A DNA stretch of 63,851 nt from Eubacteriales bacterium (lineage in GTDB: Bacteria > Bacillota > Clostridia > Lachnospirales > Lachnospiraceae). Below are positions 33,699-59,580 of this stretch, in pieces; the stretch's first letter is position 1, and each line of letters starts with the position of its first letter. The notes beneath the pieces were generated by a model. It did not search any database. It was given only the letters and a program-made list of their open reading frames with translations, and was not told the origin of the DNA. The stretch is taken from contig JAUNDV010000010.1 in NCBI GenBank assembly GCA_030525875.1, positions 1-63,851 of the forward strand, written 5' to 3'. Position numbers and translations under genes: made by a program.

Positions 33699-36600
33699 TT
33701 ATTTCTTTTTTCTTATAAGGATAAAACTAAGTCCTAATGCAGATAATATAGCTAGGATAAACAGATACATTCCTTCATTTACATCTCTTACATCTTCTTT
33801 CTTATTTGAAACTGAAGACTCCTCGTAAATTCCAGCCGCCTCTATTATCTCCTGCTTTTCCTGCTCGCTCTTAAGCTCAGCAGACTTCTTAGACAAAAGC
33901 TCTGATTTATTGAATATTTCAGTATCTCCTGTCTCGGCATTAAATGAATATACATACTTATCGGAAGTCACCTTCTGTGCTGTATTTTCTGCTATCTTAT
34001 CGGAAGTTTCAGCATCTGTCACTGCTTCTGTAGTGGCATTTTCTGTCTCATCAACCTCATTAGATTCCGTAGAAACATTTGCATTATCTGTAGCATTTGC
34101 AGATTCTGTATGGACAATTTCAGATTCAAGCGCCGTATTATCCGGTTCTGCAAGCATACCTTCAGATTCAATCGTGGTATTATCATCTATATCCACATTT
34201 TCCTCTGCTATGCTTTCAGTTGCTTCTGTCTGAGACTCGCTCATACTTCCGTTTGATTCAGAAATACTGCTCTTATCTAAAGAACCATCTACACTTGAAT
34301 TTACGTCTGCATCTGATAAAGCTTCTGTATTCAAATCTCCATTTGCATTCGACAAACCTTCCGAATTTGAACTTCCATCTACTTCTGAAGTTCCATCTGC
34401 ATCCGAAATTCCATCCTTATCAGATCCGATTGATAACTCGTCTGACATATCATCTGAGAGCTTTTCTGCCTCTTCTTCACTTTCCTTTGCACTTAGGATT
34501 TCCTCTGCTCTAAGAAGTTCTTCCTCCTTTATTGGATTTAGATTCAACTTCTCCTTAAGCTCTCTTAACTCTGCAAACTCAGGATTTTCTCCCTCTGAAG
34601 GATTTAAGAGTTCATTTAAATGAGCTAAGGCAAAATCAAACAAGGATATATCTGAAAATGCATTTTCAAGCTCCAGCTCCTCGCCAGTAATATAGTTAAA
34701 TCCCTTAGCTTCGCCACTCTTATATCTTACAATAAGATATGGAAGCTCAGAATCTGTATTAGTGGTCATATGTGCTATATTTTTTCTTGAGAAGCCATCA
34801 GGTGTCCTGATGTGATCTGCCATATCCTTGAGCTCTGATTTGCTGTTTAGGATGCTTGCATATACAAGTCCATTATACTCGTCTATTACATATCCCTCTG
34901 AAATATCACAGCTTTCAAATGAATACAGCTTGCCATTCTTTACTATAAGCTGTTTTTCCTGAATAAGTGCCTCTCCCTGTTCTCCATCATAGATCTCAGT
35001 AAATCCACCGTAAGTCTTAAAGGTTTTGTCTTCAAACTGTGTCTCAAATAAAGCATTATTTGCAGTCTGAGCTTCTGATGAAAGTGTATCTGGCTCATTA
35101 ATATCAGCTAATTCATTAACATTATCAGCTCCGTTAAGCTCATAAACATTTCCGTCAGCATCCAGCGCCTTGCCTTTATAAAGATGGATAATATCCTTAT
35201 CAAGCACTACTCCCTGCGAATTCATAAGCTGTCCGTTGCAGGTGTAATAATAATCATCTCCCCATAGCATAACAGTTCTTCTGAGTTCACTTGAGTCGAA
35301 CTCCTTTGTAGCTTCGCTGTATGTCTGTGGTGCATTTGATGCACTTAACTTATCTGACACACCTGCTGTATTAATACTTTCTGCCTTAACCGTAAGATTG
35401 GACTTATATCCATATTTTAGAGAAATCACTCTGCCTTCTGGCTTAGCCTGATATAAAAGCTTATCTCCGTCATAGACAGTGAGCATTGACACGTCTTCAT
35501 AATCATTTGGAAGCTCAATATTAACAGTTTCAATTCCAGAAGGATAAGCCTTGATGTTTATATCACTGGCCTCTGGTTCAAGCTTAAGTTTACTTGAAGC
35601 ATCTCCCGGAATCTCTATTCCTCCATAATACAACGCATCCGTTCCATCATAGAAATTGTAGCTTCCATCTTCGTTTATAAGACTGTCGTCTTCTCCTATA
35701 TCTGGAAGTATACCCTCCTGTGAACCTCTTAAAGGCTGATTATTTCCTAGGCCTAAAACAGGCATATATCCCTTAGTCTGTACCTTTATGATATTTGAAT
35801 AATAATACCGGTTTGCATCCTTATCATAAACTCTTGCCAGATAATATCCTCTTCCTGCAAGCTCTATGCTGTCCTTATCCTTTAACTGAAGATCTATCAT
35901 ATCATATCTTCCGCCATAGGATCTGTACCATCTTATCTCACAGTTGTCAAACAGCTCCTTATCATCCTTAACTATGGTAGCGGTAACTATTTTGTCCCCA
36001 GCATCATAGAGATTAGTTGTATCCAGAGGTATCTGCTTTCCATTTACTGTTAAGTTGATTTTCTTATCTGCTGAATTTACTGGGAAAGCTTTAATATCAC
36101 TTTCTCTTTCTTCATCCATCCGGCCTGTAGGTTCTGTCTTCCAGTTATTGATCCAGTTAAGTCCACCCTTTTCATGTGATAAACTGTATAATCTTCCATC
36201 ATATAGGTCTGTATTTCTCACAAGCAGAGATTTCTTAAGCATCTCGTTTCCTGTTTCAGCACTACCACCTGCATCTGTAGGCTTGAAAGTATACCAGTAA
36301 TCCTTATACTTATCCTTTGCTGTTTCTTCTGAGATTTTCTGTCCATCCTCTGCTACTGTAATAAGCTTTGAATGTTCATATAATCTGATATATTCCTCAT
36401 TATGCTCATATCCAAGCGATGGGTCTATATTCATTATAAAATCTCTATTAAACTCTGACTCAACATTTCCAAGCATTACGAGAGAATGCATTCTGCTGCC
36501 ATCCAGTACAGGGCTGTTTTCATTTTGGTTCTTAGAATAATATCCTACAAAACCTCCAGCATAGCTCTTTGCCTTTATATCACCCTTTACATATGCATTA

Positions 36601-39600
36601 TAAAGCATTGACTCTACCTGAGTGTCATCAATTCTATTATCTCCATCAAGTCTTCCTACTATACCTCCGGCATATGAGCCCTCAGCATCAACCACGGAAT
36701 CCGCAAAATAGTTATCCACTATCTGACTGCCATCGCTATAGCCCGCAATACCACCAACACAGTTGCCTTGTGCTGTTATCTCAGAATCTCTTACAAAATT
36801 GCTTGTAATATTTTCTGTAGATAAAGTATAACCGATTATACCTCCTGCATAGCTGTTCATTGTATCCATATTGCAGCTTGCATCTATCTTTGTATCCATA
36901 ACTGCATTTCTACTGATACTGCCAGGATTTGAAGTAGCATCTGTACCAACTATTCCTCCTACATTAGTACCACTTGATTTTATAACGGATCTTGAAACAA
37001 GATTGCTGCCTACACTTATTTTTCCTCCATTACAGCCAATGATTCCTCCTACTGATACTGGTGCCTTTACAGTTGTTCTGTCAACAATATTATTGCTGAT
37101 AATTGTATTACATTTTCCTACAACACCTCCGGCATTTTCATAATAAGCTTCAACATTACATTTATCTACATATCCTTTTTGATGTGCATATCCTATACCT
37201 ACAGCTCCTCCTACATTGGAATAACCCTTTATAGTGCTGTTTTTAATAGAGAAATCAAATGGTGAACTTGATATACCTCCTACGTTATCTCCCCTTGAGC
37301 TTCTTACAATGATATTATCAGCATCTACATAATAGCTGTTTCCAGATGCTACGCCATAGATTATGGATACTGTTCCTTCTGGATTTTCATTCATTGTTTC
37401 TATAAGGGAATCAGAAATTTTACTTCTATTTTCCTTCTGCTCAGACTGAGTAGAGCCTGCTGACGGAATTGTACCTGAACCTACAATACCTCCTATTGAA
37501 GAAATTCTCTTTTCGCTTGTCTTCTTCCAGTTACCATTTCCTACTACATGAATGCCTTTTACATCCAGTTTGTCACTAGCTGAACCATGTCCGCAGATAC
37601 CTCCTACATTAAAGTTACCTACTATTTCGTAACCATACTTTGTATCCTCTGCTCCAAGCTCACCGCTAATGCTGCCTTCAGCCTGAATCCTGTTAACAAC
37701 ATATTTTGTATAGCCTACCAGTCCGCCTGTATTATTTCCTTCAGATCTTACCTTTATATCCTTTAGCTTTATGTCACTAAGACTTCCTATATTGTAACCA
37801 ATACAGCCTGTATTAGTGCATACTCCAGCATCTATTTCTATATTACTAAATTCAACATTAGATATTTTACCTGAATTAGTACCTATAATGCCTATCTTTG
37901 TAGAAGAATTTTTCCACTCCTTTGGATCTAGTGGAACCTTCCATGTAATATCTTCAAATTTTACATTATCTGCTCTTGACAAGATTTCTGTAATAAGATT
38001 ATCTCTGCTTTTGTTTATCTCATGGTTTATACCGCTGATAGTATATGTTCCACCATCACTTGTAAGAGAATTAAGCTTTACATTATATACATTATCCTCA
38101 TCCTTTAATCCGGAAAAATCTATATTGCCGGTAAGAACTACATTAGGATAAGAGGTTCCCACAGCTCCCTTAAGCTTCTCATTCCATTCCCTTGCATTGG
38201 ATATTCTTATTGAAATAGGAACTACCGGCTTTACTGAGCTTGTCACTTCGATTACCCTTCCTGTGGAAAGCTCTCTGAGCTTGGCTCTAAGGCAGTATAT
38301 ATCTCCTCCAAATATTTCCTTTACAAAATGGAAATTAAATACATGTCTGTTTCCTAAAACAGTTTCTTCATATCCATTTTTGCCATTTATTGTAGTATTC
38401 AGATTTACTCCGTCCATAGAAAGCTCAGCACAATCAAAGCTATATTTACTACTATCATAGCTTAATACAAAGTGCAGCTGATAAGGATTTATAAGCTCCT
38501 GCGGCAAAGCGCCCTTATCTATGAGCCTGTGATAATCATCTACATAATCACTGTTTATTTCCATCAGTGTTTCTGTAAGTGAAATATCTGTCTCATTTAT
38601 CTGCATAGGCTTCTGATTTGGCAAAATGTTTCCATCAGTTCCTTTTAGCATAGGAAGATAGCCCTTACTTATATCCTGAACCTCTCCATTGTGAATCCAG
38701 CTGTGTGCATAGCTGTCATTCCATTTTAATATGTCAGCATAGGTTTCCTTATTGCTTAGCTGTTCCTTGGTCAAAAGCGCTTTAGCATCATCCTTATTGT
38801 CACTTATTCCATTTAAGAGCATCTGGCCATTAAATGCATAGTTATCTGCCATTTCTGACTGAACATATCCAAAGATTCTGTGTATAGAATCTAAGGAAGT
38901 ACTATGAGTAAATACATCGCCAAGGCTAAGGTTACCTGCTATAAGTTTAGCAGCTCCGGCATGACCGATTATTCCTCCTACAAAGCCTCCGTATATATCC
39001 ATATCAACCATTGAAAGATTGTTTTCAATAACCGGACTTCCATCTGAATATCCACAGATTCCGCCTGCATAGTTGAACATAGAACTAATACTTCCTTCTG
39101 CAAGGCAATTTTTCACTGAACAGTTGGCACTTCCGATAAATCCGACTATTCCACCTATACCTCTTCCTTCAAGTCCTTCAATTGCATTTATTTCTATGCC
39201 CTGCACAAAGCTGTTCATTATATCTGCATCATCAGCTGTGCCTACCAGTCCTCCTATATTTAAAATAGTTACAGCATCATTCATTGATTCTATAGAGCTA
39301 TTTGTTACTGAACAGTTTACAATCTGTGTATTTCCGTTTGCTGTTCCAACCAAGAGTCCGGATCTATAGCCTGTAACAGATTTTGAGTTAGAAATGTGAA
39401 CATTTTCTATTGTTGCTCCGCTTGCCGTAGCGATTAACCCGACATTACTGTAGCCAGTCGCATTTTTAGATGTATTTAAGCTTATATTGTCAAAGTACAG
39501 ATTTTTGATGCTTCCATTAAAGGTTCCAAAGAGATAAGAAAATTTTCCAAGCTTCATATTCCTGATTACAGCATTTTTAACCTGTCCATTCTCTGAAATA

Positions 39601-42600
39601 TGTGCTCCATCTATCTTTCCTCTGAAGTTAGATGTAACTCTGTAAGCTGTTGTATAATCACTTTCACTTATATGCGAGAAATCCAGCTCATCTGCAGTGA
39701 TCCTGATATTGCCAAATTCATCCAGATTATTTTTGAGGAAGGCTTCTCTCCATTCGTCAACAGTTTTAACCTCTCTATAAAACTCCATCAGAAGCTCAGA
39801 GAATTCTCTCTTAGGATTATCATATTCCTTATATGTATCCTCGTATCCCTTTAAGCCTGCACTGAAGCTGTCTATAAAATACTGCGAACGGTAAAGCTCT
39901 ACACTCTTTACCTCTGCTGTTACATAATAGACTCCGTCCTCTTCTATTCCCTGTGATATGATAGCTATATCTGAATCAATTTTTCTAAAATTCTTGATAC
40001 CATCAGTCTTGCTGTTATCCAGTACTGAAAGCTTAAGCTTATTAATATCCAGATAGCTCCTGTTTATAAAGCCTATTTTTATTACGGCTTTATTATTTTC
40101 ATTAGAGATAACACTTGTAGATACTACCTCAGGAGCTGCTGGCAGAGTCCTTTCAGGCAACCTCATCTGTGGCTGTTTATTGTCCATTTCCTTTGGCATC
40201 TTTAGCTGTGGATAATATCCAGCATCTATCATTTCAGTTTTAAATGCAGAGGTGGAATTGATAGCATTATCAACCCAGACCTTATCATGTAATGAATTTA
40301 CAGAAACTCTGTTATTATATGTATTGTTATAACGGGAGGCATTTAAATTGTCTCTTGTTTCTACATATGAAATATTTGAGAATCCAGTTCCTCCCTCTAC
40401 TGCCACTCCGACAGCCGGTCCGTACTTGACCGGAGCCTGCCCATTTGAAAGTGTAACACCTACACCAAGTGCATTTTTAACTGAACCTGAATTTGAATAG
40501 GCTGTTATAGTACCCATCCTCTCTGAACTTGTCGCACTTTCATCATGTATATCTTCTATATCAACAACAGAATATACATTTTCAATATTTCCTGAGTTTT
40601 CTGCAACCAGACCTGCTCTCTGGGCTCTGCCTCCTGAAGGCGCTGCATCAGTAATTATCTTGTGATTTCCTGAAAGCAGGTATCCATTTCTTACAGTTCC
40701 ATAATTAAGTACTATTCCCGGAGATGCATAGTTTAAAACTTTAAAATCATCTGTAAGCTGTATGGCAAAGTTTTCCACAGTGCCATAATTATTATAGGCT
40801 ATACCTCCTATTCCCTCATTTGAAATATTGTTATTAAGGCCGATCTTTAATATAAGATTCTTTATAAGTCCATAGTTAGAAAAACAAAGAGCACCTCTCC
40901 ATTTTCCTATATTCTTTGAATCTATATTTACATCTGCTACGAGATTTTCTACTACAGCGCCCTCTTTGATATTTCCAAACACTATGGCCATGTTTTCCAA
41001 ACTTAGAGTATGTCCTCCAAAATCAAGATGCCCATAGAAATTATCTATATTTCTCTCTCTTGTAAGCTTTATATCCTTACTTACATAATAGCTCTCTGTA
41101 GGGTTATAGGTCACAGCATATAGAGCTGCCTCAGACTTTATTATATTTGAGTGTCTTCCTGTATTAATATTTGCAGAGCTAAGAGCTATTCTCTCTTCGC
41201 CTTGTTCTACAAGAATCTCAAAATAATAATCCAGATCCGGCTTTACAGGCATAGTAATACTGGTGTAATAATCCCTGTTTTCATCAAAATCTATCTTATG
41301 TATTTCTGTATCTTCATAAGCTACAGCTCCTGATTCATCCCTTGCAATATAGTGAAGATAATATTGAGGAGCACTTCCTAAGGTATCTGCCTGATCATGG
41401 ATATCCACTGCCAGATTAAGCTGCATCTGTCCCTTTGTATATGCCGGAGCACCTCTTCTAAGCTCTGGCATAATTTTATCATTTTCTCCAAAGTTGACAT
41501 TAACTCTTACATAGTGACAATTTTCTGGAATTTTTATTCCTGAATTATCGCTTCTATATGAATATCCTATAAAGTTCTTTTTATCATCGTACAGTGCGCA
41601 ACCGGTTACATACATAGCTTCATAGGCAGAATTAGGAACTACCTTGATATAATCACTCACTCTTTGAGACTCTAAGCTGTTCTTCACTTCTATTCCATCT
41701 GAATTAATAAGCGTTCCGTCTTTAAAACCATCTTTGCCATTAAGAAGATTAGGGCCAAATATCTTATCAGAAACTATGCCAAGATATATGCTGTCTTCAT
41801 ATCCCTTTTTGACATTCATCCTGATGTAGCTTACACCCTCTGGTATTACTATATTTGCATAATATTCTCCATAATATAATGCTTTAACAAAATTGTCATT
41901 TTTATCAAACATATATACTGTTGAAACTAAACCATTGGATAAAAATGGCTCAAGGCTTCCATATCTTGAATACATTCTATCCGCTTCAACAGGTATTTTA
42001 TCTGTATAAGAATAATCCTTGTTCGGCTTAACTGTTACTTCGTTCCCGTTTACATTTAAATAACTGTCAGGTATAAGCTTAACACCATCAAGAAGATTTT
42101 TTCCTCCACTCTCTTCATCGGAAAACAGGGCTTCAGCAAAATACATACTTGGTGCGGAATAAATATGCACATTAAATCGAACATAATATGCATTGTCAGG
42201 TACATGTACTAAACCTGAATATTTATTCATTCCGTTATATTCCATTCTTCCTAACAGCTTATGATCCTTATCATAAAAGAAGGTGGATGAACTTGCTGAT
42301 ACACCTTTTATATAATTTTTCCCAGGCTCAACCGGAATATAATCAGAAACTAACCATCCGTTACTATTAATAATACTTCCATCAGACTTAATCAGACTGT
42401 CAACCTCGCAGTCATTTATATCAAATAGATTATTGCCGGAAACACCTATTCCATCTTCAGCCTGCTGCATTTCATAATCTGTCTGGACTCTGTCTATAAC
42501 GATATTTCCATACATAGTATTTTCTGTCTTGAAGCTTATAGTGCTTCCATCAGGTCTGTAGAGTGTCTTCTGATATTCAAGACTTGTGTTGTCATAACCT

Positions 42601-45500
42601 TCGTTATATTCTGTAGCATTTACGCTGACTACGTATGAAATGCCCTTTTCAAGTCCTGTATACTGAAGCTTGCCAAGCTTATTGATCTCGTCTATGCTAT
42701 ATACTCTTGCATCCAGCTCAGCTCCATTTGCCAGTCTAAGTCTGATAACTACCTTGTCATTAAGTATAGCTCCGTCAGGATCAACTATCTTAAAGCCATA
42801 GAAGGTAGCCTGATCATCCGAAATATAGCTTGTCTTATAATCAAAATATGCCTGTTTCTTAAGAGTTGTAAAATTGTCCTGTTTATTCTGTCCGGTTACA
42901 TTTTCCTCTAGCTTCTCTCCTCCTACATTTGTGCCTCTTACACCTATTGCAGCCATCTCAACCTTATATCTGGAAGCTGAATTTAATCCCTTCTCCTTAA
43001 ATGAAACCTTTATAATTCCATCTCTAAAGAAGCTATCCCATGCAGATAACTCGTCTTTACTCTTATTGATTATGCTTATCTCAGGATCCAGATAGTTAAG
43101 CCCTGTTTCTGAGGCAGCTGTCTTATATGTATATTCGGATTCCGGAGCCAGTCTTACTCTTTCAAGCTCTGATTTATTGATTCTATATGTAAATATTTCT
43201 CCATTAGGATCTGTTATCTTAAATTCAAAGGTTTCAATAAATGGAATCAGATTCTCATTTACAGTTCCTCTCTTACTAATCTCTATGTCAGCACTTTCTG
43301 AGGTTATATTAAGTATTTCAAATGAGAAATTCACTGTCCCAAGTGTTGAAAGTGCCTCTGTATATAGGTTGCCGCTTCCTATAACCTCCTCATCATGCTC
43401 TAAACCATCTTCGCAGTCATAGCTTGCCTTGACCCATATGGTATAGGCAGTATTTGATAAAAGATTAGTAATGTACAGACTTTCACTGTTCCTTTCAAGT
43501 ATGTGATAAGTTTTTTCTTCCTTTTCATCTGAAAGCTTCATGCTTATAGGGACATCCGGTCTGTCGGCATAGGTAATATATAAATATGGCTTAACTGTAC
43601 CCTGGGCATTTTTCTTAAATACAGCCTTATCCTCATTGCTTATCTCTATCTTTATGCCCTTTTTTGTGATAGGTGACTTAGCTTCTACATTTACATAAGC
43701 CTTTGGAAGCTGCTTTGAGGTTCTGAAGCTTCCGCTGAGCACAGCTTCACTTACAGCAGGCAGCTCATTTCCATATCTGTCGTAAAGTTTAAGCTTATAT
43801 TCATAGCTGCTGTTTGAATCAAGTATGTCCTTTGACTTCCACTCGGTAATCTTGCCTGTCCTAAGGTCATTAAGTATAAGATTTGAAAATGTAGCTTCCG
43901 GACTCTGCCAGTCAGGAGAGCCCTTCTTTTCAAAGCCTAGCTGTACAGCCGCAAGATTCATGAGCGCATCAGTATCCTCATTGTAAGCGTCTATCTCTAT
44001 CTTGCTTCCATTTACATGAGTTTCAGCTTTGATATTATTAAGCTTTACTGAAAATGTAGACGGTCTCTTAAGCTCTGGCTCCTGATAGATATAAATTGGA
44101 TTTAAGGTAGATACCGGCAAGGTCTTTCCGACGTACTGTCTAGGGAAAAATTCAATTTTTACTTTTCCATACTCAGGATGCTCAAATTCAAAATATCCCT
44201 CAACCTCATATTCTGTATCAGGTCTTAACGGCTTAAACTTTACAGTTCCTTCTGAATATATTGTTTTTCTGAAGGAAACTCTTGAATCATCTTTCTTGTA
44301 AAAATTAAGCTTAATATTTCTTATCTTAAGCTGGTTTGGATTATCTATCTTAACATCAGCTGTAATATTATAGACACCAAATTTAAAATTAGACAGACTT
44401 ATCTCAGGTGCCTTAAATTTGTCATTGTTATTTCCCTGTGTATCTCCTGAATCTGAATCGCCTTCTCCGTCTTCATCTTCACTTCCATCATCACCGGAAG
44501 CAAAATTCTCATCATCACCACTTCCACCCTGTGAAAATGGCCACTTATTGTCCTTTCCCGGATATGGAGGATGCAAAGGATCAGTTTCCTCTATTGATTC
44601 TGTTTCAGTCTGATTTTCTGAAGCTTCACTGCTTTCTATAACAGCCTCATCTGTTTTCTTAAGTGCTTCACTATCTTCATTTTCAGGCTTTACATCGTTA
44701 TTTGCCTGAGTTTCTTCAACTGTGGAGCTTTCCTGTACTTCACTTTCATAAGCTTCTGTTTCAGGCTCTGTTTCTTCGGTTTCTACTACAGTTTCCTGCT
44801 TGCCCTTATCTCTTTCTGAAAGATTCTTGAGTTTGCTTAGGAGGTCTTTGTATAGCATGCTTACACTTCCAATTTCAACTCTTGTATCTTCGGTTATAGG
44901 AATATTATTGTATACATATTTTCCGTTTTCAAAGGAATAATAGCTTATGCTGTCCTCTTTAAGATTCATAAGACTGTTAACAGCTATCTCAGAAACCAGA
45001 TTTACAGACTCAAGCTTCATATCCTGAACATTCATAAAGAGCCCATCCCCAGTTTTTATGAAAATGAACTCTTCATCATCTGCCTTGGTTCTGTCCTGAT
45101 TGTAGCTTGTACCATCCACTATATAGAGTCCTTCATATGTATCCAGTATACTAAAATCAGACGAGATCATCTGAATCTCGTCTCCATAGCTCTTTAGCCT
45201 GCTTCCGTCATTTGTATATACAGGATATTTTATATTGAACTTTTCAAAGTCTTTTCCTATATAATATCCACCCATTCTTGTATAGACAGGTGTCTGCGAT
45301 TCATACGGTCTAAGCTTAAGCTCTGTTTCCTCTTCATCAGGCAAAGCATCTCCAAAGTCTTTTTTTAGATTAGCTGCCGCACTTTCTGTATCTATAACAA
45401 AGCTAAGCTCATCTGTATATGCAAGCAATCTGTAATTATAAAAATGCATAAACAGCATTATTATTGAAATAACTACTGCAAATATGCCGGCTTTTTTCAT
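33699..45500 (-). CDS. Giant membrane-anchored surface protein with FN3-like, carbohydrate-binding-like and GLUG repeats (3,933 residues)
   Basis: Start ATG 45500 behind AGGAG. Layout by residue: N-terminal membrane helix (4-28); a ~200-residue extracellular module shared with neighbours (30-230); Glu/Thr/Asp linker (235-370); several FN3-like beta domains (370-1000); three tandem jelly-roll-like modules starting NLFDINDCE (~1025), NLLDGVKL (~1135) and NLLNGKDG (~1250); GLUG-type beta-solenoid blocks at ~1540-1680, ~1990-2190 and ~2530-3000 (units such as NVGGIIGCNGG, AGGIVGRLDG); further beta domains; a Ser/Asp/Glu/Thr stalk (~3670-3900); C-terminal membrane helix (MYLFILAILSALGLSFILI) and RKKK. 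No LPXTG. Both ends are membrane-inserted, so it may loop outward. Last gene of the ATPase-like operon, 34 bp after the 248-residue protein. Adhesin or leg-like role is inference. Confidence 0.85.
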   Translation of the reverse strand: MKKAGIFAVVISIIMLFMHFYNYRLLAYTDELSFVIDTESAAANLKKDFGDALPDEEETELKLRPYESQTPVYTRMGGYYIGKDFEKFNIKYPVYTNDGSRLKSYGDEIQMISSDFSILDTYEGLYIVDGTSYNQDRTKADDEEFIFIKTGDGLFMNVQDMKLESVNLVSEIAVNSLMNLKEDSISYYSFENGKYVYNNIPITEDTRVEIGSVSMLYKDLLSKLKNLSERDKGKQETVVETEETEPETEAYESEVQESSTVEETQANNDVKPENEDSEALKKTDEAVIESSEASENQTETESIEETDPLHPPYPGKDNKWPFSQGGSGDDENFASGDDGSEDEDGEGDSDSGDTQGNNNDKFKAPEISLSNFKFGVYNITADVKIDNPNQLKIRNIKLNFYKKDDSRVSFRKTIYSEGTVKFKPLRPDTEYEVEGYFEFEHPEYGKVKIEFFPRQYVGKTLPVSTLNPIYIYQEPELKRPSTFSVKLNNIKAETHVNGSKIEIDAYNEDTDALMNLAAVQLGFEKKGSPDWQSPEATFSNLILNDLRTGKITEWKSKDILDSNSSYEYKLKLYDRYGNELPAVSEAVLSGSFRTSKQLPKAYVNVEAKSPITKKGIKIEISNEDKAVFKKNAQGTVKPYLYITYADRPDVPISMKLSDEKEEKTYHILERNSESLYITNLLSNTAYTIWVKASYDCEDGLEHDEEVIGSGNLYTEALSTLGTVNFSFEILNITSESADIEISKRGTVNENLIPFIETFEFKITDPNGEIFTYRINKSELERVRLAPESEYTYKTAASETGLNYLDPEISIINKSKDELSAWDSFFRDGIIKVSFKEKGLNSASRYKVEMAAIGVRGTNVGGEKLEENVTGQNKQDNFTTLKKQAYFDYKTSYISDDQATFYGFKIVDPDGAILNDKVVIRLRLANGAELDARVYSIDEINKLGKLQYTGLEKGISYVVSVNATEYNEGYDNTSLEYQKTLYRPDGSTISFKTENTMYGNIVIDRVQTDYEMQQAEDGIGVSGNNLFDINDCEVDSLIKSDGSIINSNGWLVSDYIPVEPGKNYIKGVSASSSTFFYDKDHKLLGRMEYNGMNKYSGLVHVPDNAYYVRFNVHIYSAPSMYFAEALFSDEESGGKNLLDGVKLIPDSYLNVNGNEVTVKPNKDYSYTDKIPVEADRMYSRYGSLEPFLSNGLVSTVYMFDKNDNFVKALYYGEYYANIVIPEGVSYIRMNVKKGYEDSIYLGIVSDKIFGPNLLNGKDGFKDGTLINSDGIEVKNSLESQRVSDYIKVVPNSAYEAMYVTGCALYDDKKNFIGYSYRSDNSGIKIPENCHYVRVNVNFGENDKIMPELRRGAPAYTKGQMQLNLAVDIHDQADTLGSAPQYYLHYIARDESGAVAYEDTEIHKIDFDENRDYYTSITMPVKPDLDYYFEILVEQGEERIALSSANINTGRHSNIIKSEAALYAVTYNPTESYYVSKDIKLTRERNIDNFYGHLDFGGHTLSLENMAIVFGNIKEGAVVENLVADVNIDSKNIGKWRGALCFSNYGLIKNLILKIGLNNNISNEGIGGIAYNNYGTVENFAIQLTDDFKVLNYASPGIVLNYGTVRNGYLLSGNHKIITDAAPSGGRAQRAGLVAENSGNIENVYSVVDIEDIHDESATSSERMGTITAYSNSGSVKNALGVGVTLSNGQAPVKYGPAVGVAVEGGTGFSNISYVETRDNLNASRYNNTYNNRVSVNSLHDKVWVDNAINSTSAFKTEMIDAGYYPQLKMPKEMDNKQPQMRLPERTLPAAPEVVSTSVISNENNKAVIKIGFINRSYLDINKLKLSVLDNSKTDGIKNFRKIDSDIAIISQGIEEDGVYYVTAEVKSVELYRSQYFIDSFSAGLKGYEDTYKEYDNPKREFSELLMEFYREVKTVDEWREAFLKNNLDEFGNIRITADELDFSHISESDYTTAYRVTSNFRGKIDGAHISENGQVKNAVIRNMKLGKFSYLFGTFNGSIKNLYFDNISLNTSKNATGYSNVGLIATASGATIENVHISNSKSVTGYRSGLLVGTANGNTQIVNCSVTNSSIESMNDAVTILNIGGLVGTADDADIMNSFVQGIEINAIEGLEGRGIGGIVGFIGSANCSVKNCLAEGSISSMFNYAGGICGYSDGSPVIENNLSMVDMDIYGGFVGGIIGHAGAAKLIAGNLSLGDVFTHSTSLDSIHRIFGYVQSEMADNYAFNGQMLLNGISDNKDDAKALLTKEQLSNKETYADILKWNDSYAHSWIHNGEVQDISKGYLPMLKGTDGNILPNQKPMQINETDISLTETLMEINSDYVDDYHRLIDKGALPQELINPYQLHFVLSYDSSKYSFDCAELSMDGVNLNTTINGKNGYEETVLGNRHVFNFHFVKEIFGGDIYCLRAKLRELSTGRVIEVTSSVKPVVPISIRISNAREWNEKLKGAVGTSYPNVVLTGNIDFSGLKDEDNVYNVKLNSLTSDGGTYTISGINHEINKSRDNLITEILSRADNVKFEDITWKVPLDPKEWKNSSTKIGIIGTNSGKISNVEFSNIEIDAGVCTNTGCIGYNIGSLSDIKLKDIKVRSEGNNTGGLVGYTKYVVNRIQAEGSISGELGAEDTKYGYEIVGNFNVGGICGHGSASDKLDVKGIHVVGNGNWKKTSEKRISSIGGIVGSGTIPSAGSTQSEQKENRSKISDSLIETMNENPEGTVSIIYGVASGNSYYVDADNIIVRSSRGDNVGGISSSPFDFSIKNSTIKGYSNVGGAVGIGYAHQKGYVDKCNVEAYYENAGGVVGKCNTIISNNIVDRTTVKAPVSVGGIIGCNGGKISVGSNLVSRSVIKSSGTNVGGIVGTDATSNPGSISRNAVMDTKIDASCNMDTMNSYAGGIIGYTLSTENITSNFVRDSEITAQGNCVGGIAGYSDGSQIVDNYFADSVVDAEGSYAGGIVGRLDGDNRIDDTQVESMLYNAYVKGDIKAKSYAGGFVGYYSKNQNENSPVLDGSRMHSLVMLGNVESEFNRDFIMNIDPSLGYEHNEEYIRLYEHSKLITVAEDGQKISEETAKDKYKDYWYTFKPTDAGGSAETGNEMLKKSLLVRNTDLYDGRLYSLSHEKGGLNWINNWKTEPTGRMDEERESDIKAFPVNSADKKINLTVNGKQIPLDTTNLYDAGDKIVTATIVKDDKELFDNCEIRWYRSYGGRYDMIDLQLKDKDSIELAGRGYYLARVYDKDANRYYYSNIIKVQTKGYMPVLGLGNNQPLRGSQEGILPDIGEDDSLINEDGSYNFYDGTDALYYGGIEIPGDASSKLKLEPEASDINIKAYPSGIETVNIELPNDYEDVSMLTVYDGDKLLYQAKPEGRVISLKYGYKSNLTVKAESINTAGVSDKLSASNAPQTYSEATKEFDSSELRRTVMLWGDDYYYTCNGQLMNSQGVVLDKDIIHLYKGKALDADGNVYELNGADNVNELADINEPDTLSSEAQTANNALFETQFEDKTFKTYGGFTEIYDGEQGEALIQEKQLIVKNGKLYSFESCDISEGYVIDEYNGLVYASILNSKSELKDMADHIRTPDGFSRKNIAHMTTNTDSELPYLIVRYKSGEAKGFNYITGEELELENAFSDISLFDFALAHLNELLNPSEGENPEFAELRELKEKLNLNPIKEEELLRAEEILSAKESEEEAEKLSDDMSDELSIGSDKDGISDADGTSEVDGSSNSEGLSNANGDLNTEALSDADVNSSVDGSLDKSSISESNGSMSESQTEATESIAEENVDIDDNTTIESEGMLAEPDNTALESEIVHTESANATDNANVSTESNEVDETENATTEAVTDAETSDKIAENTAQKVTSDKYVYSFNAETGDTEIFNKSELLSKKSAELKSEQEKQEIIEAAGIYEESSVSNKKEDVRDVNEGMYLFILAILSALGLSFILIRKKK

Positions 45501-45534: not shown

Positions 45535-46261
45535 TTATTCCAAAATGCCAAATCCATCCGGAGAAGGAGGAAGTAACATTGAAAGATTATTGAATATATG
45601 TATGTCAGCAATGTCATTACTCATATTTAAGGTATAATCCCCTGAATCAGGCTTTGCATATACGATGTCCTCTCCCGACTGCACAAATTCTGATTGTTTG
45701 TCCTGATATGAATAATAATAAAATCCCTGATTATTAAATACCGCTATATATGACAGAGGTGAAAGGCGTAAGCTCTTCATATTTTCATTTTCGCCCCAGC
45801 TTACTGTTACTGGCTCAAGAAAAAGATATACATCCCCGCCATCATGAAGCCAGCTGTTTCCTACCTCTTTGTATTTTCGTCCATCTGTACTTATAGAACA
45901 GATATCGCCTTCTTTTTTTATTATGGCAAAATGATTTACCTTTTTTACCATATCTGCTGAATAGTTTGAAAATATCATAGGAGCTGACAAAACAAGTGCC
46001 TCTTTATTTTCATAATATACAGGTATACTATTAAGACTAAAGCTTCTGTCCTCAGCTATAAGCTCTGTTTTCATATCGTCTTTGTTGTATTTAAGCTTAC
46101 AACCCTGTCTGTAGCTTTGCTTTTGCCCCATCGTACTAATAAATACAGGCTCTTTTATATTGATCGTGTCCTTCTTGTTGATAAAAAAAGCTGCAGATAA
46201 AGCAGCTATCAAAAGTGCGGCTATTACAGAAACAGAAATCTTTAATTGTCTTTTTCCTGAT

Positions 46262-46281
<20 letters not shown>
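45535..46281 (-). CDS. Single-pass anchored extracellular protein of the ATPase-like operon
   Basis: 248 residues. Short basic cytoplasmic end (MAKKSFKSGKRQLK), membrane helix (~15-35, ISVSVIAALLIAALSAAFFI), then ~210 extracellular beta-rich residues. The segment DVYLFLEPVTVSWGENEN and LSPLSYIAVFNNQGFYYYSY lines up with the membrane-proximal modules of the 3,933-, 624- and ~1,980-residue proteins in the same operon, so it looks like that module without any extension. Overlaps the preceding gene by 20 bp, hence coupled. Known family: none I recognise. Confidence 0.8.
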
Positions 46282-48416
<2,135 letters not shown>

Positions 48417-48431
48417 TCAATCTATTAGAAC

Positions 48432-49208
48432 TCAGCTCTTATCTCCATCTTCATATTGAAGCTTTGCAAAGCTGTCTATTACCTTGGCAAATTCCTTTTC
48501 TCTTTCTGCCTTCAAAAGAGCTGTTCTCTTTCTTTCTTCTATCTCATCAAGTCTGTCCAAAGATTCCTTTGTGGCATTCTGCCTCATCAGATTTTCTCCT
48601 GCACTGCTGAAAATGTCTGCCAGCATTATCTCATAGCAGATATAATCCACGATCATATTCTGGAGAAGCCTTTCAATATTTCCTTCTATTACAAAATCAT
48701 CTCTGTATTTACGTTTTTTCTCCGTTACTACAGGATAAATCTGCTTTCTTCTAAGATGGATATTGGTAGTATTTTCATAATGATTATAAACAATCGTTAC
48801 CTTCTTAAACTCTCTCCTGAAAATACCATTTGTAACCAGACTCTGTACTTTACTCATATCTGCCCTGAATTCTTCACAGCCAAGCTTAAGCAGGGCATCC
48901 TTTCCATAAAGCTTTCTTCCTATGAGAACAGACACACCTTCATCCTTTTTTATCTGCTCATTTACTCTTGTATTAAAATTGCTGCAAAATCCGTAATCAC
49001 TTCCAAGATATATAAACAGCTCAGGAGCATTTTCATCAGGCTTTATTACCTTTTTATCCAGAACAAGGTTTTTATTGTTCATGATAACATCTATCATATC
49101 GATCAGCTGTTCTTCCATCATCTGGTATTTATTTGCTGTCTGCTTTGCTTTATTTACTCTGAGAAGTGAATGAAAGTTCATTACCTTTACTACATTTCTG
49201 ACATTCAT
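48432..49208 (-). CDS. F1-type ATPase gamma subunit (rotor shaft), divergent
   Basis: 258 residues, ~25-30 shorter than usual. N-terminal helix (VRNVVKVMNFHSLLRVNKAK), the Rossmann-like core with IYLGSDYGFCSNFN (canonical TDRGLCGGYN) at ~67-80, and a long C-terminal helix (SSAGENLMRQNATKESLDRL ... AREKEFAKVIDSFAKLQ). Both long helices that form the shaft inside alpha3beta3 are present. It keeps the canonical place between alpha and beta. Confidence 0.85.
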   Translation of the reverse strand: MNVRNVVKVMNFHSLLRVNKAKQTANKYQMMEEQLIDMIDVIMNNKNLVLDKKVIKPDENAPELFIYLGSDYGFCSNFNTRVNEQIKKDEGVSVLIGRKLYGKDALLKLGCEEFRADMSKVQSLVTNGIFRREFKKVTIVYNHYENTTNIHLRRKQIYPVVTEKKRKYRDDFVIEGNIERLLQNMIVDYICYEIMLADIFSSAGENLMRQNATKESLDRLDEIEERKRTALLKAEREKEFAKVIDSFAKLQYEDGDKS

Positions 49209-49235: not shown

Positions 49236-50564
49236 TTAATTAACAAGTCCATTTACATCCTTAGTGAATGTCTCAATGATTTCTTCCTTAGCTCTAGGTG
49301 AATACTTATACTGGTTAAGATCATCAAGTATTGCCTTGCCCTTTCTAAGCTTGCTCTTTAGCTCATCACTCATTTCGTCCTCATTTGCAAGCTCATAGAC
49401 CTTTCTTGTCTCCAGATAACTTAGAAGCTCACGTCTTACGACCGCACCCAGCTTCTTCATCTCCGGAAGCTGTACAGCACCACCAAGTCTTGAAACTGAA
49501 AGACCATAATCTATAGCTGGCTTCTGTCCTTTCTGAAAGCTTGAGGCTGAAAGAATAAGCTGTCCGTCTGTGATAGAAATAATATTTGTAGGAATATATG
49601 AGGTTGCATCTCCTCCCTTTGTTTCAACTATAGGAAGAATGGTTATTGAACCTCCATTCTTGTGCTGACAGCCCTTCTCCAAAAGTCTGGAATGTGTATA
49701 AAAAATATCCGCAGGATATGCCTCTCTTCCCGGAGCTTTTCCTACTAACAGGCTCATTTCCCTGTGAATATTTGCATGCCTCTTAAGATCATCTATTACA
49801 ACCAGCACATCCATTCCAAACATCATATATTCTTCTGCAATTGAAAGTGCAACATATGGTGTAAGGTATAAAAGCGGAGATGGATCATCATTAAATGCAG
49901 CAACTATTATTGTATGCTCCATGGCTCCCTTCTTTGAAAGCTCATCATAGAGATTTACAATATTTTTCTTTGTCTTTCCAATAGCTACATAGATGCAAAG
50001 CACCTTTTTATCCTTCTGGTTAACTATCGTATCAAGGCAAAGCTGGGTCTTGCCGGTTTTTTTATCTCCAAGGATAAGCTGTCTCTGTCCTTTTCCAATT
50101 GGATAGATAAGATCTATACCTGCGATACCTGTTTCCAAAGGACGTACAACAGCTGTTCTGTCCATGAGAGGAACATTTTTCTTCTCTACCTCTATCTCAT
50201 GTATATTGTCAAAGGAGCTTCCTGTAACTCTGTCATGTCCAAAAATATCTATAATATGTCCAACAGAATCTGTAGAATAAAGTCCCTTAAACAGCTCTCC
50301 GCTTGCAACAGCATCATCTCCTACATATATGTCATCATTTTGTTCAACTATTGCAACCTTGCATGAGTGTCTGCCTATAGAACATACATATCCTGTAGAA
50401 TTATTGCTTACAATTATCTTTTCCATAAAGCAGGCCTCATCAAGACCTGAAACTTCGACTATGTATTCTTTTACTGCAATTACCTTACCAATAGCAAAGG
50501 TATTGTCTTTTTTCTTTATTTCTTCAATTTTTTTTGTAATGAGTTCGTCAAGATATTTACCCAC
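49236..50564 (-). CDS. F1-type ATPase alpha subunit, C-terminally short
   Basis: 442 residues against ~500 for a housekeeping alpha. GTG start behind GGGAGG. P-loop LILGDKKTGKTQLCLDTI at residues 163-180 (canonical GDRQTGKT), and the arginine-finger segment SVSRLGGAVQLPEMKKLG near residue 355 are intact. The loss is in the C-terminal helical domain, which ends after KEEIIETFTKDVNGLVN. The N-terminal helix that normally contacts delta is short but present (YLDELITKKIEEIKKKD). It would form the hexamer with beta. Confidence 0.9.
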   Translation of the reverse strand: MGKYLDELITKKIEEIKKKDNTFAIGKVIAVKEYIVEVSGLDEACFMEKIIVSNNSTGYVCSIGRHSCKVAIVEQNDDIYVGDDAVASGELFKGLYSTDSVGHIIDIFGHDRVTGSSFDNIHEIEVEKKNVPLMDRTAVVRPLETGIAGIDLIYPIGKGQRQLILGDKKTGKTQLCLDTIVNQKDKKVLCIYVAIGKTKKNIVNLYDELSKKGAMEHTIIVAAFNDDPSPLLYLTPYVALSIAEEYMMFGMDVLVVIDDLKRHANIHREMSLLVGKAPGREAYPADIFYTHSRLLEKGCQHKNGGSITILPIVETKGGDATSYIPTNIISITDGQLILSASSFQKGQKPAIDYGLSVSRLGGAVQLPEMKKLGAVVRRELLSYLETRKVYELANEDEMSDELKSKLRKGKAILDDLNQYKYSPRAKEEIIETFTKDVNGLVN

Positions 50565-50578
50565 TTTGACCTCCCAGC

Positions 50579-51382: not shown

Positions 51383-51399
51383 ATTCGTTTACCTTAATA

Positions 51400-51663
<264 letters not shown>

Positions 51664-51684
51664 TTAATTTTATTAAAGATTCCA

Positions 51685-51710: not shown

Positions 51711-51727
51711 GGTTAAGCCTCAGGTTC

Positions 51728-53602
51728 TTAGTTTTCTTCTGTCTGAGGCATTGTTTCTACAGGAAAAGTTCCGCTTGATGAATCTTCTTCCTCTGTACTT
51801 TCAGGCTGAGGCTGAATATCTTCAGATTCTGAGCTATCATTTAAATCTCCCTCATCTGTATTTAGGTCAGACTCTTGAGATTCTGTCTTATCAGACTCCT
51901 CACTACCTATCGTACCAGACTCCTCATCTGCTTTATCTGATTCTATTTCTACATTACCAGACTCTGTTTCTATGTTAGAATTGTCTGATTCTGTTTGATC
52001 CGGATAACTTTCTATTTTATCTGAATCACTTTCTGTCTTATCTGAATCACCATTCGCATCTGGTGTCTCGTTTTCTTCGCTTGAAGCTCCATTATCAGGC
52101 TTAGTTTCCGGACTTGTTTCTAAGCTGTCATCGCTTGCAGAGCCTGTTCCGTCAAATGAAGGAATATAGAAGGAAGCAGAAGTAGCTATATCTATACTAT
52201 CAAGCTTTAGCTTAAACTCTAATCTTACAAAGCTATCCTGAACACTCTTGTCAGAAATAGTAGCCGTTCCTGTAACAATTCCCTTGGAAATATTATTGGT
52301 ATTAAAATTAAATTTAACACCCTGTATCTCTGCTCCTGTTTCCTCAAGAACAAGCTTTGCTGATGGATTTCTCAGTATCAGCCTCTTGTCAAAGTTAGCT
52401 TCAAATTCTATCCTGCTTGACGTAATTCTCTCTACTGAAAGATTAATACTGTTAGAAAGCGTAATAGCATAAGCTATATCCATCTCGACAGTCTGTCCTT
52501 CATTGTTAATGTAAAAAAGGGTAAATTTATATTTTGTATCTTCCTTAAGATCGTAAACAGAAAATGTGGTTTCATTAGGGTTAAGATCGTATATTTCAGC
52601 CTTGTCAGCATCTCCTCCAACCTCTTCCTGCTTAAGTCTTACAACACTATAATCAAGTAAAGGATCTGCTACTACATAGTGAATATCGGCAGCATTTGCA
52701 TAGGTTTCAATAGTACGAATATACATACCCTTTCTTCCTATTATATCCTGGTCTCCCTGACCGCCTCCGGCTACACCTGAGCCGCCTTGACCACCAGCTC
52801 CACCGTCACCGCCTCGGCCACCTGAACCACCTTGGCCACCCTGGCCTCCCTGACCACCGGTTCCACCTGCTCCTCCAGTTCCGCCTTGGCCTCCATCTCC
52901 GCCCTTAATATCAAGCTCTATGACATCCGGCTGCGTTTCAACCATATTTTCGCTGGAACTCACAGATAAATCCTTCTTTAAATCAACGACAAGCTCACCA
53001 TAATTTAACATAAGCTCTTTGAGATTAAATCTTAGGTTACCTGCATTTATCTCTCCCGGTGATGCAGTTTTAACATTCGTATTTTTGTTTACCATTCTTG
53101 AGTTGCCATTTTTATCAAGAAGTACATAAACATAATCGGAAGTATTCACATGTCCGCTGCTGTCCGTTATATCTGATCCAGTAATAAGATAATCATTGTC
53201 ACCAAGTTTAAAAAATCCCGGTGTTTCAAGATCAGTGACTGGTACATAGCCATCTATACTGCTCACAAATCCATTTGACTTTATCTGATAACCATCCGCA
53301 AATATCTTTAATATTCCTGAGGACTCATCCTTTACTATAGCCTTATCTCCGAGACTTTGCTTATTTTCTCCATCTGAAAGAATAAAGCTATCATCCCAGC
53401 TACGTTTTATTGTACTTTCATTTTCAACTGTAATAGCCTTTCCGTTGGAGTCAAATACTGTGTTACCGGAAGCAATTATATATACTGTTTCCTGATTTGA
53501 AAGAGCTTTTTTTACACCAAATCCCATGGTTACAGCAGCTGCTGCAACCATGAAACCGAAAATATTAAACATTAGCTTATTTCCAAATGTTAATTTACGC
53601 AT
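51728..53602 (-). CDS. Anchored surface protein with Gly-Gly-X region and FN3-like domains (624 residues)
   Basis: N-terminal membrane helix (~10-30, MFNIFGFMVAAAAVTMGFGV), the operon's shared extracellular module (~35-225, e.g. DNDYLITGSDITDSSG, then DYVYVLLDKNGNSRMVNKN), a ~50-residue GGX run (~232-283) likely to form a polyglycine-II bundle, two FN3-like domains (~290-485), and a Ser/Asp/Glu/Thr tail (~500-624) without membrane helix or sorting signal. Located just upstream of the c gene (70 bp) and 31 bp after the giant FN3/collagen gene. Function not known; structural part of a surface assembly is my inference. Confidence 0.8.
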   Translation of the reverse strand: MRKLTFGNKLMFNIFGFMVAAAAVTMGFGVKKALSNQETVYIIASGNTVFDSNGKAITVENESTIKRSWDDSFILSDGENKQSLGDKAIVKDESSGILKIFADGYQIKSNGFVSSIDGYVPVTDLETPGFFKLGDNDYLITGSDITDSSGHVNTSDYVYVLLDKNGNSRMVNKNTNVKTASPGEINAGNLRFNLKELMLNYGELVVDLKKDLSVSSSENMVETQPDVIELDIKGGDGGQGGTGGAGGTGGQGGQGGQGGSGGRGGDGGAGGQGGSGVAGGGQGDQDIIGRKGMYIRTIETYANAADIHYVVADPLLDYSVVRLKQEEVGGDADKAEIYDLNPNETTFSVYDLKEDTKYKFTLFYINNEGQTVEMDIAYAITLSNSINLSVERITSSRIEFEANFDKRLILRNPSAKLVLEETGAEIQGVKFNFNTNNISKGIVTGTATISDKSVQDSFVRLEFKLKLDSIDIATSASFYIPSFDGTGSASDDSLETSPETKPDNGASSEENETPDANGDSDKTESDSDKIESYPDQTESDNSNIETESGNVEIESDKADEESGTIGSEESDKTESQESDLNTDEGDLNDSSESEDIQPQPESTEEEDSSSGTFPVETMPQTEEN

Positions 53603-53633
53603 TTACTTATATTTCCTCCCGGAAGGCTAAAAA

Positions 53634-56600: not shown

Positions 56601-58698
56601 AGTATAACCCGTCTGGTCTATAGCATGATCCTTTATTTTATTTAACGGATCCTTCTCTGTAACGCTAATCTTGGCAATTTCTGAATTATATGTTTTCTCT
56701 TCAAAAACATACATAGTATAGCTCTGGGCAAAAAGTCCACTGTTGTCATACTGTGGATTCAGATAGAAGCCTACGACCGCATCACCCGGAAGTTCTTCAT
56801 AAGCGGTTATGTCTATACCCATTTCCATAGCTACATTCTTTGTAACAGGCTCTACATCGAGTGCATTTTCCGGAAGCTCTGGAGGTGACTGCTTCTTAAT
56901 AAGATCAATCTTATTATTTTCTACTGAAATTGTATTTACAAAATTAGTAGGATTAGAATCAGTACCCTTATATCTATACTCGTCGATACTTGTATAATCC
57001 TCGAGTCCTATTATCTCAAGCGTATAATTACTGCTATCGCTAATCTGATTGTCATTTATATTGAAGGTATCAATATTGTTTATAAGCAGATATTCTGAAG
57101 GTGTACCATCTACGTCATCTGTATATACCCTGTTGTAGAAATTACTGTCAAACTCAGCTGTACCTGTTTTATCAGGAGGAAGTATGTCATATGGTATCTT
57201 AGCTTCTGCCATCATACTTCCATTTTCAAGCAATCTTAAGCATACATTGCTGACCTTGTGTGCTTCATACTGACCACGATCACCTTCCATTGCAGCCTTG
57301 GAACCTCTCGTAAAATAAAGTTTGGCATTAAGCGCTCCCTTTATTTCATCATCTTCCAAGGTATCATCAAATCTTGCAGAAATAGATTCTGCCTTTGGTG
57401 TAGTAACAATCATGGAAGTAAGAAGCTGCTGGGATGATGAATCCTGATAATATCCGTACAAGCTAAATCTATAGGTTGTATTTTGCTTTAGACCTGTAAG
57501 ATCTACAGGCACAGTAATCACACTAGTATCACTTCCTACAAATGGATCTGAATACCATGTCTGATAAGGATATTGTCCAATAGTTTCATTGAATATACTA
57601 AGTGTAAGTGGTTTTGTTGAATCAATATCTGCAAGCTCTGCACCATTTAAGTGTATTTCCATACTTCCTTTTATGGTTTCATAATTGAGCTTTTCCTTAT
57701 TAAATACCAGATATGGAACACCTGTTTCTCCGCTTATATAAACTTCCTTAGTAAAAGGAGATTCATATTCAACAATTTTTTCATTGTCATCAAATTCAAG
57801 AACGAGCTTAATCTGATAATGCACGTCTCTTTTAATGGTTGTGCCATCAGGATATATAGCTGCTGTATTTCCATTATCTCTCTCAACACTTGTTACAAAT
57901 GTACCATCTGGTGTGTAGAAATCATATCTATAACCCACTATTCCATGATCTTCATCTGTAATAGATGAAGTATCAGGGCGCAGCTCAAAATATCCTCTAG
58001 GATTCACAGCAACAACCGGTGCCTTTGTAATGAGCGGTGCTTTCTTTAATGTCTTATATACGGATTCAGATATCTGAACATTTTTTTCATTTTCATCCTT
58101 AGCATCAGGATTTGTAACCACAAGTCTGACCTTGTACTCAGTATTTGATTTTAATCCATCAAACTTGTGCTTAATTGTTCCTACATCTAATCCATTCAAA
58201 GGCGCTGTATGTACCTTTTCATCGCCACTGTAAATAGATAATTCAGCATTAACAACTCTTGAATAATCCTTCTTTTCTATATTAACTTCTATGGAATCAG
58301 AGGTAGCCTTATTAAAGCTTTCAATCACACCATAGGATGTAGTTGAAAATGATCTGTTAATATAAGTTCTTGTACCTGCTGAAACACTTTCGTCCTCAGC
58401 CTGTGAAAGCTTATAGGAAACCTCGAGATACATCTTATAGCTGCTGTCCGGCTTAAGTGCATCTGTTTCAAATTCCAATGATGCTGCTGAAAGATCTGTA
58501 CCATCATAAGACTCTGAATATACTTCCTGATTGCTGTTTAAATCAATGATCTTCAGAGTACCTGACAAAATTTCAACCCCATTAGGATCTACATCATTTT
58601 GAATTGTTCCCTTAGCTGATGAAGTATCATAGTCAAATTTAATTAAAATGTAGTCAGGGAAAACGACCTTCTCTGAAGAAACTGATCCACCACCTGTG
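53634..58698 (-). pseudogene. Giant FN3-type surface protein, C-terminal part after a frameshift
   Basis: About 1,690 codons. The frame continues upstream of its first start-like TTG (58568) through KGTIQNDVDPNGVEI and SSEKVVFPDYILIKFDY back to a GGTGGTGGA stretch at ~58690, where it meets the collagen-like reading in another frame. Composed of tandem FN3-like beta domains (recurrent ends such as LKSNTEYKVRL, LKQNTTYRFSLYG, LKKNTQYKLEIYAKKN). No membrane helix or sorting signal at the C-terminus (ends KKSISVTMIN). First gene of the ATPase-like operon. Inserting one G in the GGGG tract at 58699-58702 restores a single ~1,980-residue protein; as it stands it is broken. Confidence 0.75.
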
Positions 58699-59580
58699 CC
58701 CCGGTTCCACCAGTTGAGCCTGTAGCACCGCTACTACCCTTACTTCCTGATGAGCCATCCGAGCCTTGTGAACCTTCCGCTCCGTCAGTTCCTACCTTTC
58801 CGTCCTCTCCCTTTGTTCCTTCAGATCCGTCTTCACCTATTTCTCCAGATTCTCCATCTGCTCCTACATCGCCAGCCTGCCCATCTTTTCCATCCTGAAC
58901 TGTTATGTCAAAAACAGGAACCTTAGGCTGGCTGTTTAATGACGGAGTAACTGAAATATTATTGCTGTCTTCCAAATATATCTCATCAAAGCCAAGGCTT
59001 ACTCCAGCATTTGTAAGTATACTTCTTTCAGACATATTGAGTGCTGTGCCACCTGAAACTGACAGATCGCTTCCCTTTGCAAGTAACATGTATGCATTTT
59101 CATCATTTGCAAGACTTACAATTCCATCCTCTGGATATTCAACCTCAAGATAGTCTCTTGCATCCGCTGTAGTTCCATCTGGAAATGTAAGATTCATTGT
59201 ATCTGAAGAAACTAAGAGCTTATCATCACCTGTTTTCCAGATGAAATCATTAAATACTATAGGTACACCATTGTTATCCAAAGTATAGCCATCATTCTGC
59301 TTTACCATTATTGAATCGCTGCCAACTTTATAATAGTTAAGAAGTCCGTCATTTAATTCATTAAATTCAAGGATTACACTGTCCTCGAAGGTAGATATTG
59401 AACCATCAGCATAGTGAATAAAGCTGTCACTCTTACAGCTCTTTGTATTGCCATCTATATCCTTAAATTTTATATCTCCAGAATATGATTTTTTGTATTT
59501 GGTTCCTGCGGTAAAGTAAACCGGCAGTGCTGATGCATTGCCATTGTCATCCTCTGTATATTCCAGAAGGGCTATACTTG
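58643..59580 (-). pseudogene. Giant FN3-type surface protein, N-terminal fragment cut by a mobile element
   Basis: Open from about 59580 (SPSIALLEYTEDDNG ...) to the stop at 58643. Contains part of the operon's shared module (DDKLLVSSDTMNLTFPDG, then ARDYLEVEYPEDGIVSLAND) and a collagen-like Gly-X-Y stretch of ~21 triplets (58895-58700). No start codon or signal sequence precedes it: the host sequence ends in the mobile element at ~59580. A frameshift in GGGG (58699-58702) then sends it to an early stop. The missing part is expected to be the membrane anchor and first ~50 residues. Confidence 0.75.

Follow-up and report, generated by a model that had tools for sequence, protein, structure and literature searches.

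A surface-linked F1-type ATPase operon in Clostridia and Bacilli as a candidate rotary machine uncoupled from ion movement

Rotary ATPases are textbook ion machines, and this holds for the N-ATPases (alt_F1F0), which retain subunits a and c and pump ions. In mycoplasmas, F1-type heads are associated with surface systems. For the type 2 or G1-ATPase of Mycoplasma mobile, the available text of PMC11864180 links the loss of the H1 helix to the loss of the stalk and presents GliD of the gliding machinery as a hypothesised descendant of a b-delta fusion. According to PMC12994834, the type 3 or F1-like X0 ATPase is required for the function of the MIB-MIP system and, when cross-linked, purifies together with MIB and MIP.

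The operon analysed here lies in the window, a stretch of 63,851 nucleotides (contig JAUNDV010000010.1) from a Lachnospiraceae genome, and shares features with each of these systems. It resembles type 2 in that an F1-type head is tied to giant surface proteins and a mechanical task at the surface is proposed; type 3 in being an F1-derived cluster without subunit a beside surface-protein genes (PMC3369863 and PMC12994834, as far as their available text goes); N-ATPases in being an F-type set additional to other rotary ATPases; and the housekeeping F1Fo ATP synthase in containing alpha, beta, gamma, a short epsilon, c and a b-delta-like part in nearly canonical order. Unlike types 2 and 3, however, it keeps c and a b-delta-like protein and has no 12-TM protein. 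It further departs from type 2 in its 178-aa membrane protein, in a window beta of 455 aa without an N-terminal extension, in surface alphas placed on a separate tree branch, and in having residues at the H1 position of alpha, whereas G1-alpha is described as lacking H1 in the available text of PMC11864180. From the housekeeping enzyme it differs in the lack of a found subunit a, in a c subunit without the ion-binding carboxylate and in an alpha of about 40% identity. No description of such a system was found in the literature library searched, which includes PMC12994834, PMC3369863, PMC11864180, PMC12306168 and PMC4154653. The operon points to a repurposing of F1 comparable to that of mycoplasmas in genomes labelled Clostridia or Bacilli, with the rotor ring kept and apparently incapable of handling ions.

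Organisation of the locus and its surface proteins

Checking of the open reading frames placed the genes at the positions, in the order and on the single, minus strand that a preliminary description had given for them (Table 1), with one small change: the gaps between neighbouring genes, in ascending coordinates, are 34, -20, -16, -4, 15, 27, 14, 17, 70, 31 and 74 bp, and thus extend to 74 rather than 70 bp. The start called for c at 51657 is probably four codons too early, judged against relatives. The Pfam scan returned no convincing match for the b-like, epsilon-like, 178-aa and 248-aa proteins, which were assigned from gene position and family alignment.

Table 1. Features of the surface-linked operon, listed in minus-strand gene order
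Feature	Position	Strand	Basis
Upstream giant (FN3/collagen-like), N-terminal part, start missing	58643..59602	-	319-codon stop-to-stop frame; upstream-giant N-domain profile, 183 bits
Upstream giant FN3 protein, remainder in another frame, 1644 aa	53634..58568	-	fn3 PF00041, 1.6e-6
624-aa GGX/FN3 surface protein: N-terminal TM, conserved N-domain, Gly-rich stretch, FN3-like part	51728..53602	-	family profile
c subunit, 81-85 aa, without ion-binding carboxylate (site residue Thr)	51400..51657	-	PF00137, E 1.5e-7; alignment
b-delta-like stator protein (putative), 267 aa	50579..51382	-	AF2 model; hhalign to delta
F1 alpha	49236..50564	-	PF00006, 3.5e-73; own tree branch
F1 gamma	48432..49208	-	PF00231, 6.6e-23
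F1 beta, catalytic residues intact	47049..48416	-	PF00006, 5.1e-64; TIGR01039, 468.8 bits, above its cut-off; motifs
Epsilon-like protein, short, 89 aa	46783..47052	-	position and family alignment
178-aa polytopic membrane protein	46262..46798	-	family alignment; locus counts
248-aa anchored protein: N-terminal TM and all-beta outer domain	45535..46281	-	
3,933-aa giant surface protein, hydrophobic helix at each end	33699..45500	-	

The upstream giant had been described as truncated, and the gene is indeed damaged, with two breaks to be distinguished: its frame is broken near 58.57-58.65 kb, within a collagen-like stretch (PF01391 match of 6.1e-9 in 58643-59308), and its start seems to be interrupted near 59.6 kb. 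A large serine recombinase gene (59644-62049, plus strand), near the contig end, begins where the giant loses its start; insertion of a mobile element at this place is probable. In most relatives the upstream giant is one open reading frame of about 1670-2280 aa.

All four surface families, namely the upstream giant, the GGX/FN3 protein, the 248-aa protein and the downstream giant, open with an N-terminal hydrophobic segment. Homology links the N-domain of the 624-aa protein to that of the upstream giant (probability 97, E 3.9e-11), and the other pairs show weak or signal-peptide-type similarity only. The fn3 match of the 624-aa protein lies under the Pfam cut-off. The preliminary description spoke of giant FN3/GLUG genes, but no GLUG family is listed for the 3,933-aa protein at E values up to 0.01, just a weak fn3 match. 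Nor did any operon protein receive a protease family at the thresholds applied. By eye, a C-terminal hydrophobic stretch is present in all five downstream giants seen (the window, G134, G019, G331 and G429), the C-termini of G134, G019 and G429 being read in two stretches, with 99 bases unread between them in G429. The 248-aa protein is modelled as a TM helix followed by an all-beta domain (pLDDT 92.4), without a clear match in the PDB. In two loci (L011 12045-14718 and L062 14775-17376), two proteins of 400-478 aa replace the 178-aa and 248-aa genes; both match the 248-aa family, and the first matches the 178-aa family as well, a pattern that looks like fusion and duplication.

The head, the c subunit and the stator candidates

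The P-loop GGAGVGKT and the catalytic Glu of GER are kept in all 17 aligned surface betas, and the arginine finger SVSR in all 21 aligned surface alphas. Measured against the NCBIfam models of ordinary subunits, the window's beta passes atpD (468.8 bits, cut-off 462.85), while its alpha fails atpA (404.8 bits, cut-off 484.45). With two exceptions among the 34 loci in which it was called, the epsilon-like protein is about 71-113 aa long, a length that leaves no room for the usual C-terminal helical hairpin. In L012, L015, L018, L025 and other loci labelled Bacilli or Firmicutes, alpha carries a long, acidic, low-complexity C-terminal tail that brings it to as much as 1,090 aa in total.

At the ion site of the c subunit, 37 surface c sequences (a count that treats L026 and L070 as one contig) have Ala in 17, Thr in 13, Ser in four and Met in three, and a carboxylate in none, whereas both housekeeping control sequences have Glu. 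Three extra c sequences outside the reading-frame calls (L062, L028, L038) show no acid there by eye. Charged residues of the surface c helices are confined to the loop ends, with the single exception (1/37) of an Asp in L012, one residue before the lost site. Since the glycine-rich first helix is retained in the alignment, the surface c subunits likely still form a ring. Both ends of an ordinary c hairpin lie on the outer face, and the C-terminal end of c bears an [FY][FY]NP motif in 37/37 surface sequences and in neither of the two controls.

A search for the subunit a family, PF00119, that was positive in 9 of 14 control genomes drew a blank in the window's genome (1.83 Mb in 36 contigs, 97.75% complete), nor is the family listed for the scanned ATPase-cluster and surface proteins of the window; the preliminary description had named a sole ATP synthase with an ordinary a elsewhere as a finding that would speak against its reading, and this was not what the genome yielded. 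The seven PF00006 matches of that genome comprise two V-type A/B pairs, Rho and the surface alpha/beta pair. PF00119 is also absent from 37 of 42 operon-carrying genomes (G429 and G565 counted once); in the other five it always lies on another contig with further PF00006 matches, so that G019, G134, G331, G429/G565 and G547 hold a separate F-type set with subunit a. Missing genes in the relatives are soft evidence, because most of these genomes are MAGs of unstated completeness. In operon genomes of about 1-1.5 Mb, such as G548, G551 and G556, the surface alpha/beta pair is the sole PF00006 pair found and no a was found, so these cells, whose genome completeness is unstated, may be without any ion-moving rotary ATPase.

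A stator is suggested by the b-like protein. Its AF2 model (pLDDT 82.5, pTM 0.50) consists of a 74-residue helix that includes the membrane part, a poorly modelled linker, a bundle of about seven short helices and, at the end, a small region in which strands mix with short helices. The C-terminal part of the family aligns with delta of 22 housekeeping-type operons at a modest hhalign probability of 54 (P 1.3e-4), eight control comparisons giving P 0.06 or worse, and its N-terminal TM segment aligns with b (28 columns, P 2.1e-4); the matches listed for its members, which cover 25 of 65 Pfam families, include neither a b nor a delta family. At the H1 helix position, where type 3 rows are mostly gapped and type 2 rows variable, residues are present in the six surface alphas listed, of 21 aligned; the type 2 and type 3 alpha models match the window's alpha from residue 27 on and the atpA model from residue 6. 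Because of the modelled architecture, the alignment to delta and the H1 residues kept in alpha, the protein is likely, though not proved, to be a b-delta fusion stator. Neither Pfam nor the PDB offers a convincing relative of the 178-aa family, and since none of its aligned residues is invariant, it has no conserved Arg.

Lineage and co-occurrence with surface genes

An alpha scan of species genomes gave 40 loci, two of them housekeeping operons and 38 belonging to a surface clade. These 38 loci are mostly labelled Clostridia or Bacilli; the carrier labels include Tenericutes, Mollicutes and similar names, and none is Mycoplasma. In trees built from subsets of the fetched loci (21 surface alphas, 10 of type 3, six or five of type 2, 12 of type 1 from the genomes that supplied the type 2 and 3 rows, 10 other housekeeping alphas and one long second-copy alpha, with types 2 and 3 set by NCBIfam cut-offs and type 1 by inference), the surface alphas form one branch, supported at 100/100 without outgroup and at 91/86 with beta as a far outgroup, and the rooted tree unites types 2 and 3 (97/94), the root being only loosely placed owing to long branches. 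This branch, together with the score gap reported below, bears out the distinct F1-type clade, apart from housekeeping enzymes, that had been proposed. In many genomes of the family an F-type alpha occupies an open frame of about 576-787 aa, accompanied in some by another of about 500 aa; the long second-copy alpha placed in the tree, of the kind seen in L054 / L067 (G120:C1) and other genomes of the family, groups among the housekeeping alphas.

Close kinship with the mycoplasma gliding ATPase, as originally stated, is not supported. Besides the separate branch, the window's alpha and beta miss the NCBIfam cut-offs of glide_MMOB1660 (399.2 against 600) and MMOB1670 (381.8 against 850), and the gliding alpha model gives 479 bits to the housekeeping alphas L045 and L046 against 367-399 to five surface alphas. 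They likewise miss MSC_0619 and MSC_0618 (316.8 and 402.3; cut-offs 520 and 570) and the alt_F1F0 pair (358.2 and 417.8; cut-offs 750.5 and 752). In hhalign comparisons, X0 proteins gave only weak hits to the non-F1 proteins of the operon, in a test of little power, with two sequences in each type 2 profile and gamma against gamma weak too.

Among loci with room for the gene in question, the ATPase genes are nearly constant (c 34/35, b-like 36/36, gamma 35/35, beta 35/35, epsilon 32/32, 178-aa 31/32), and the surface genes follow at lower rates (GGX 27/33, upstream giant 21/26, 248-aa 22/28, downstream giant 14/27). A variant order, with gamma after the 178-aa gene, occurs in 10 of 38 loci, the order of three being untyped. 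The suggestion that giant surface genes would accompany this ATPase elsewhere finds support, and the contrary pattern of homologues mostly without surface genes was not encountered: 33/38 loci hold one or more of the four surface families locally, and the five without any (L031, L032, L034, L035, L043) all have the variant order. In the variant-order loci L031, L032, L034 and L037, a gene for 282-317 aa with no family assigned follows gamma, and in L031, L032 and L034 a 245-257-aa TM protein without a clear match to the 248-aa family precedes c.

GGX lies within the stretch read in 28 of the 38 loci and beyond it in the other 10 genomes, and is thus present in 38/38; it is absent from three genomes without the operon (G117, G584, G585). 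Of those ten, G563, G574, G575 and G586 have contigs that end near alpha, G547 and G577 carry GGX on the same contig about 11-22 kb away, and G570, G571, G573 and G582 carry it on another contig, though their ATPase loci were flanked by 3-10 kb on either side. For the downstream giant, six of 13 genomes without a local copy (and 0/3 controls) proved to carry it beyond the stretch read, in G551, G554, G557 and G564 on another contig or 75 kb off; it was found nowhere in the other seven, all of variant order, the test of 13 leaving out three further variant-order genomes. Most of the co-occurrence reflects linkage, because genes of one operon travel together, and the eight unlinked cases are stronger evidence of co-inheritance.

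The alpha profile of the operon scores 710-753 bits in three of 150 family genomes, the next score among the matches listed being 413.5, and three of 398 phylum genomes pass E 1e-150; altogether the ATPase is present in 5 of 547 distinct genomes, of which two (G000 and G429) also fed the profiles. A GGX profile search of the same 398 and 150 genomes returned the same genomes, three and three. G117, from the genus of the window's genome, has no alpha-profile match at E 1e-60.

Proposed interpretation of the operon as a machine

Intact catalytic residues, a c subunit without carboxylate, the failure to find subunit a and co-occurrence with surface proteins make it reasonably probable that the operon encodes a dedicated, F-type-derived rotary machine that hydrolyses ATP, no longer moves ions and acts on surface proteins. 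ATP hydrolysis would turn gamma-epsilon and the c ring against b-delta, perhaps together with the 178-aa membrane protein, as stator; the outer face of the ring, with its C-terminal motif, would hand the movement to the N-anchored outer domains, which would pass it on to the giant proteins. The likeliest predicted use is the movement or cycling of adhesive surface proteins in motility or adhesion, with a processing machine like MIB-MIP as the next candidate. Several observations pull against this ion-uncoupled motor: beta stands above the atpD cut-off, even if alpha stays below that of atpA; the c subunit of L012 carries an Asp next to the lost ion site; five variant-order loci have no local surface family, and the downstream giant is missing genome-wide in 7/13 tested genomes; co-occurrence is mostly operon linkage; the delta similarity of the b-like protein is modest; and the upstream giant gene is broken in the window's own genome. 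A more far-reaching version, in which an ion-dead c ring would serve as a membrane-spanning drive shaft that turns or drags the N-anchored and giant proteins outside against a b-delta stator, with no ion gradient, and would constitute a new class of rotary ATPase with its own lineage beside the mycoplasma motors, can be put forward only tentatively, at somewhat under an even chance.

An ordinary ion-coupled F-type ATP synthase, divergent in sequence and placed beside surface genes by chance, would account for gene order and content that resemble an atp operon, for a beta that passes the ordinary cut-off, and for the 37/42 operon genomes that show no other F-type subunit a, in which the surface operon would often be the sole F-type set; it would need other ion residues and a subunit a too divergent to detect, perhaps the 178-aa protein. 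The carboxylate, however, is missing in 37/37 c sequences, whose helix charges sit just at the loop ends save in L012, the 178-aa family offers neither a conserved Arg nor convincing similarity to known families, five genomes (G019, G134, G331, G429/G565, G547) hold a separate set with a, and two V-type A/B pairs are present in the window's genome; such a synthase is improbable. A secretion or processing machine, in which F1 would power the export, assembly or cleavage of the giants rather than move them, its turning ring opening or cycling outer domains as proposed for MIB-MIP, would agree with the need for, and cross-linked co-purification of, X0 in that system (in the available text of PMC12994834) and with the hydrophobic segment that begins all four surface families; it seems rather unlikely, given that the operon proteins have no listed protease family at the thresholds used and that the Sec route would presumably suffice for export, since the giants have ordinary-looking N-terminal signal or TM segments. 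A static or regulatory membrane scaffold, with the F1 head as a nucleotide sensor that assembles or locks a surface complex with little turnover, has nothing direct in its favour, although the loss of the ion site and of the epsilon hairpin would also fit a role outside energy conversion; with the catalytic motifs kept in every aligned member, it is very unlikely.

For the ion-uncoupled motor, the operon offers a setting in which torque transfer across the membrane by a c ring can be tested directly, and it bears on small-genome bacteria in which the surface alpha/beta pair may be the only one. Among the carriers, the Bacillales-labelled G556 belongs to a phylum group in which type 3 clusters abound. 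Outside the operon, the 23-33 kb part of the window encodes a choline-binding-repeat protein, paired Fe-S ParA-like ATPases, a sodium:solute symporter, an MBOAT acyltransferase and a GDSL hydrolase.
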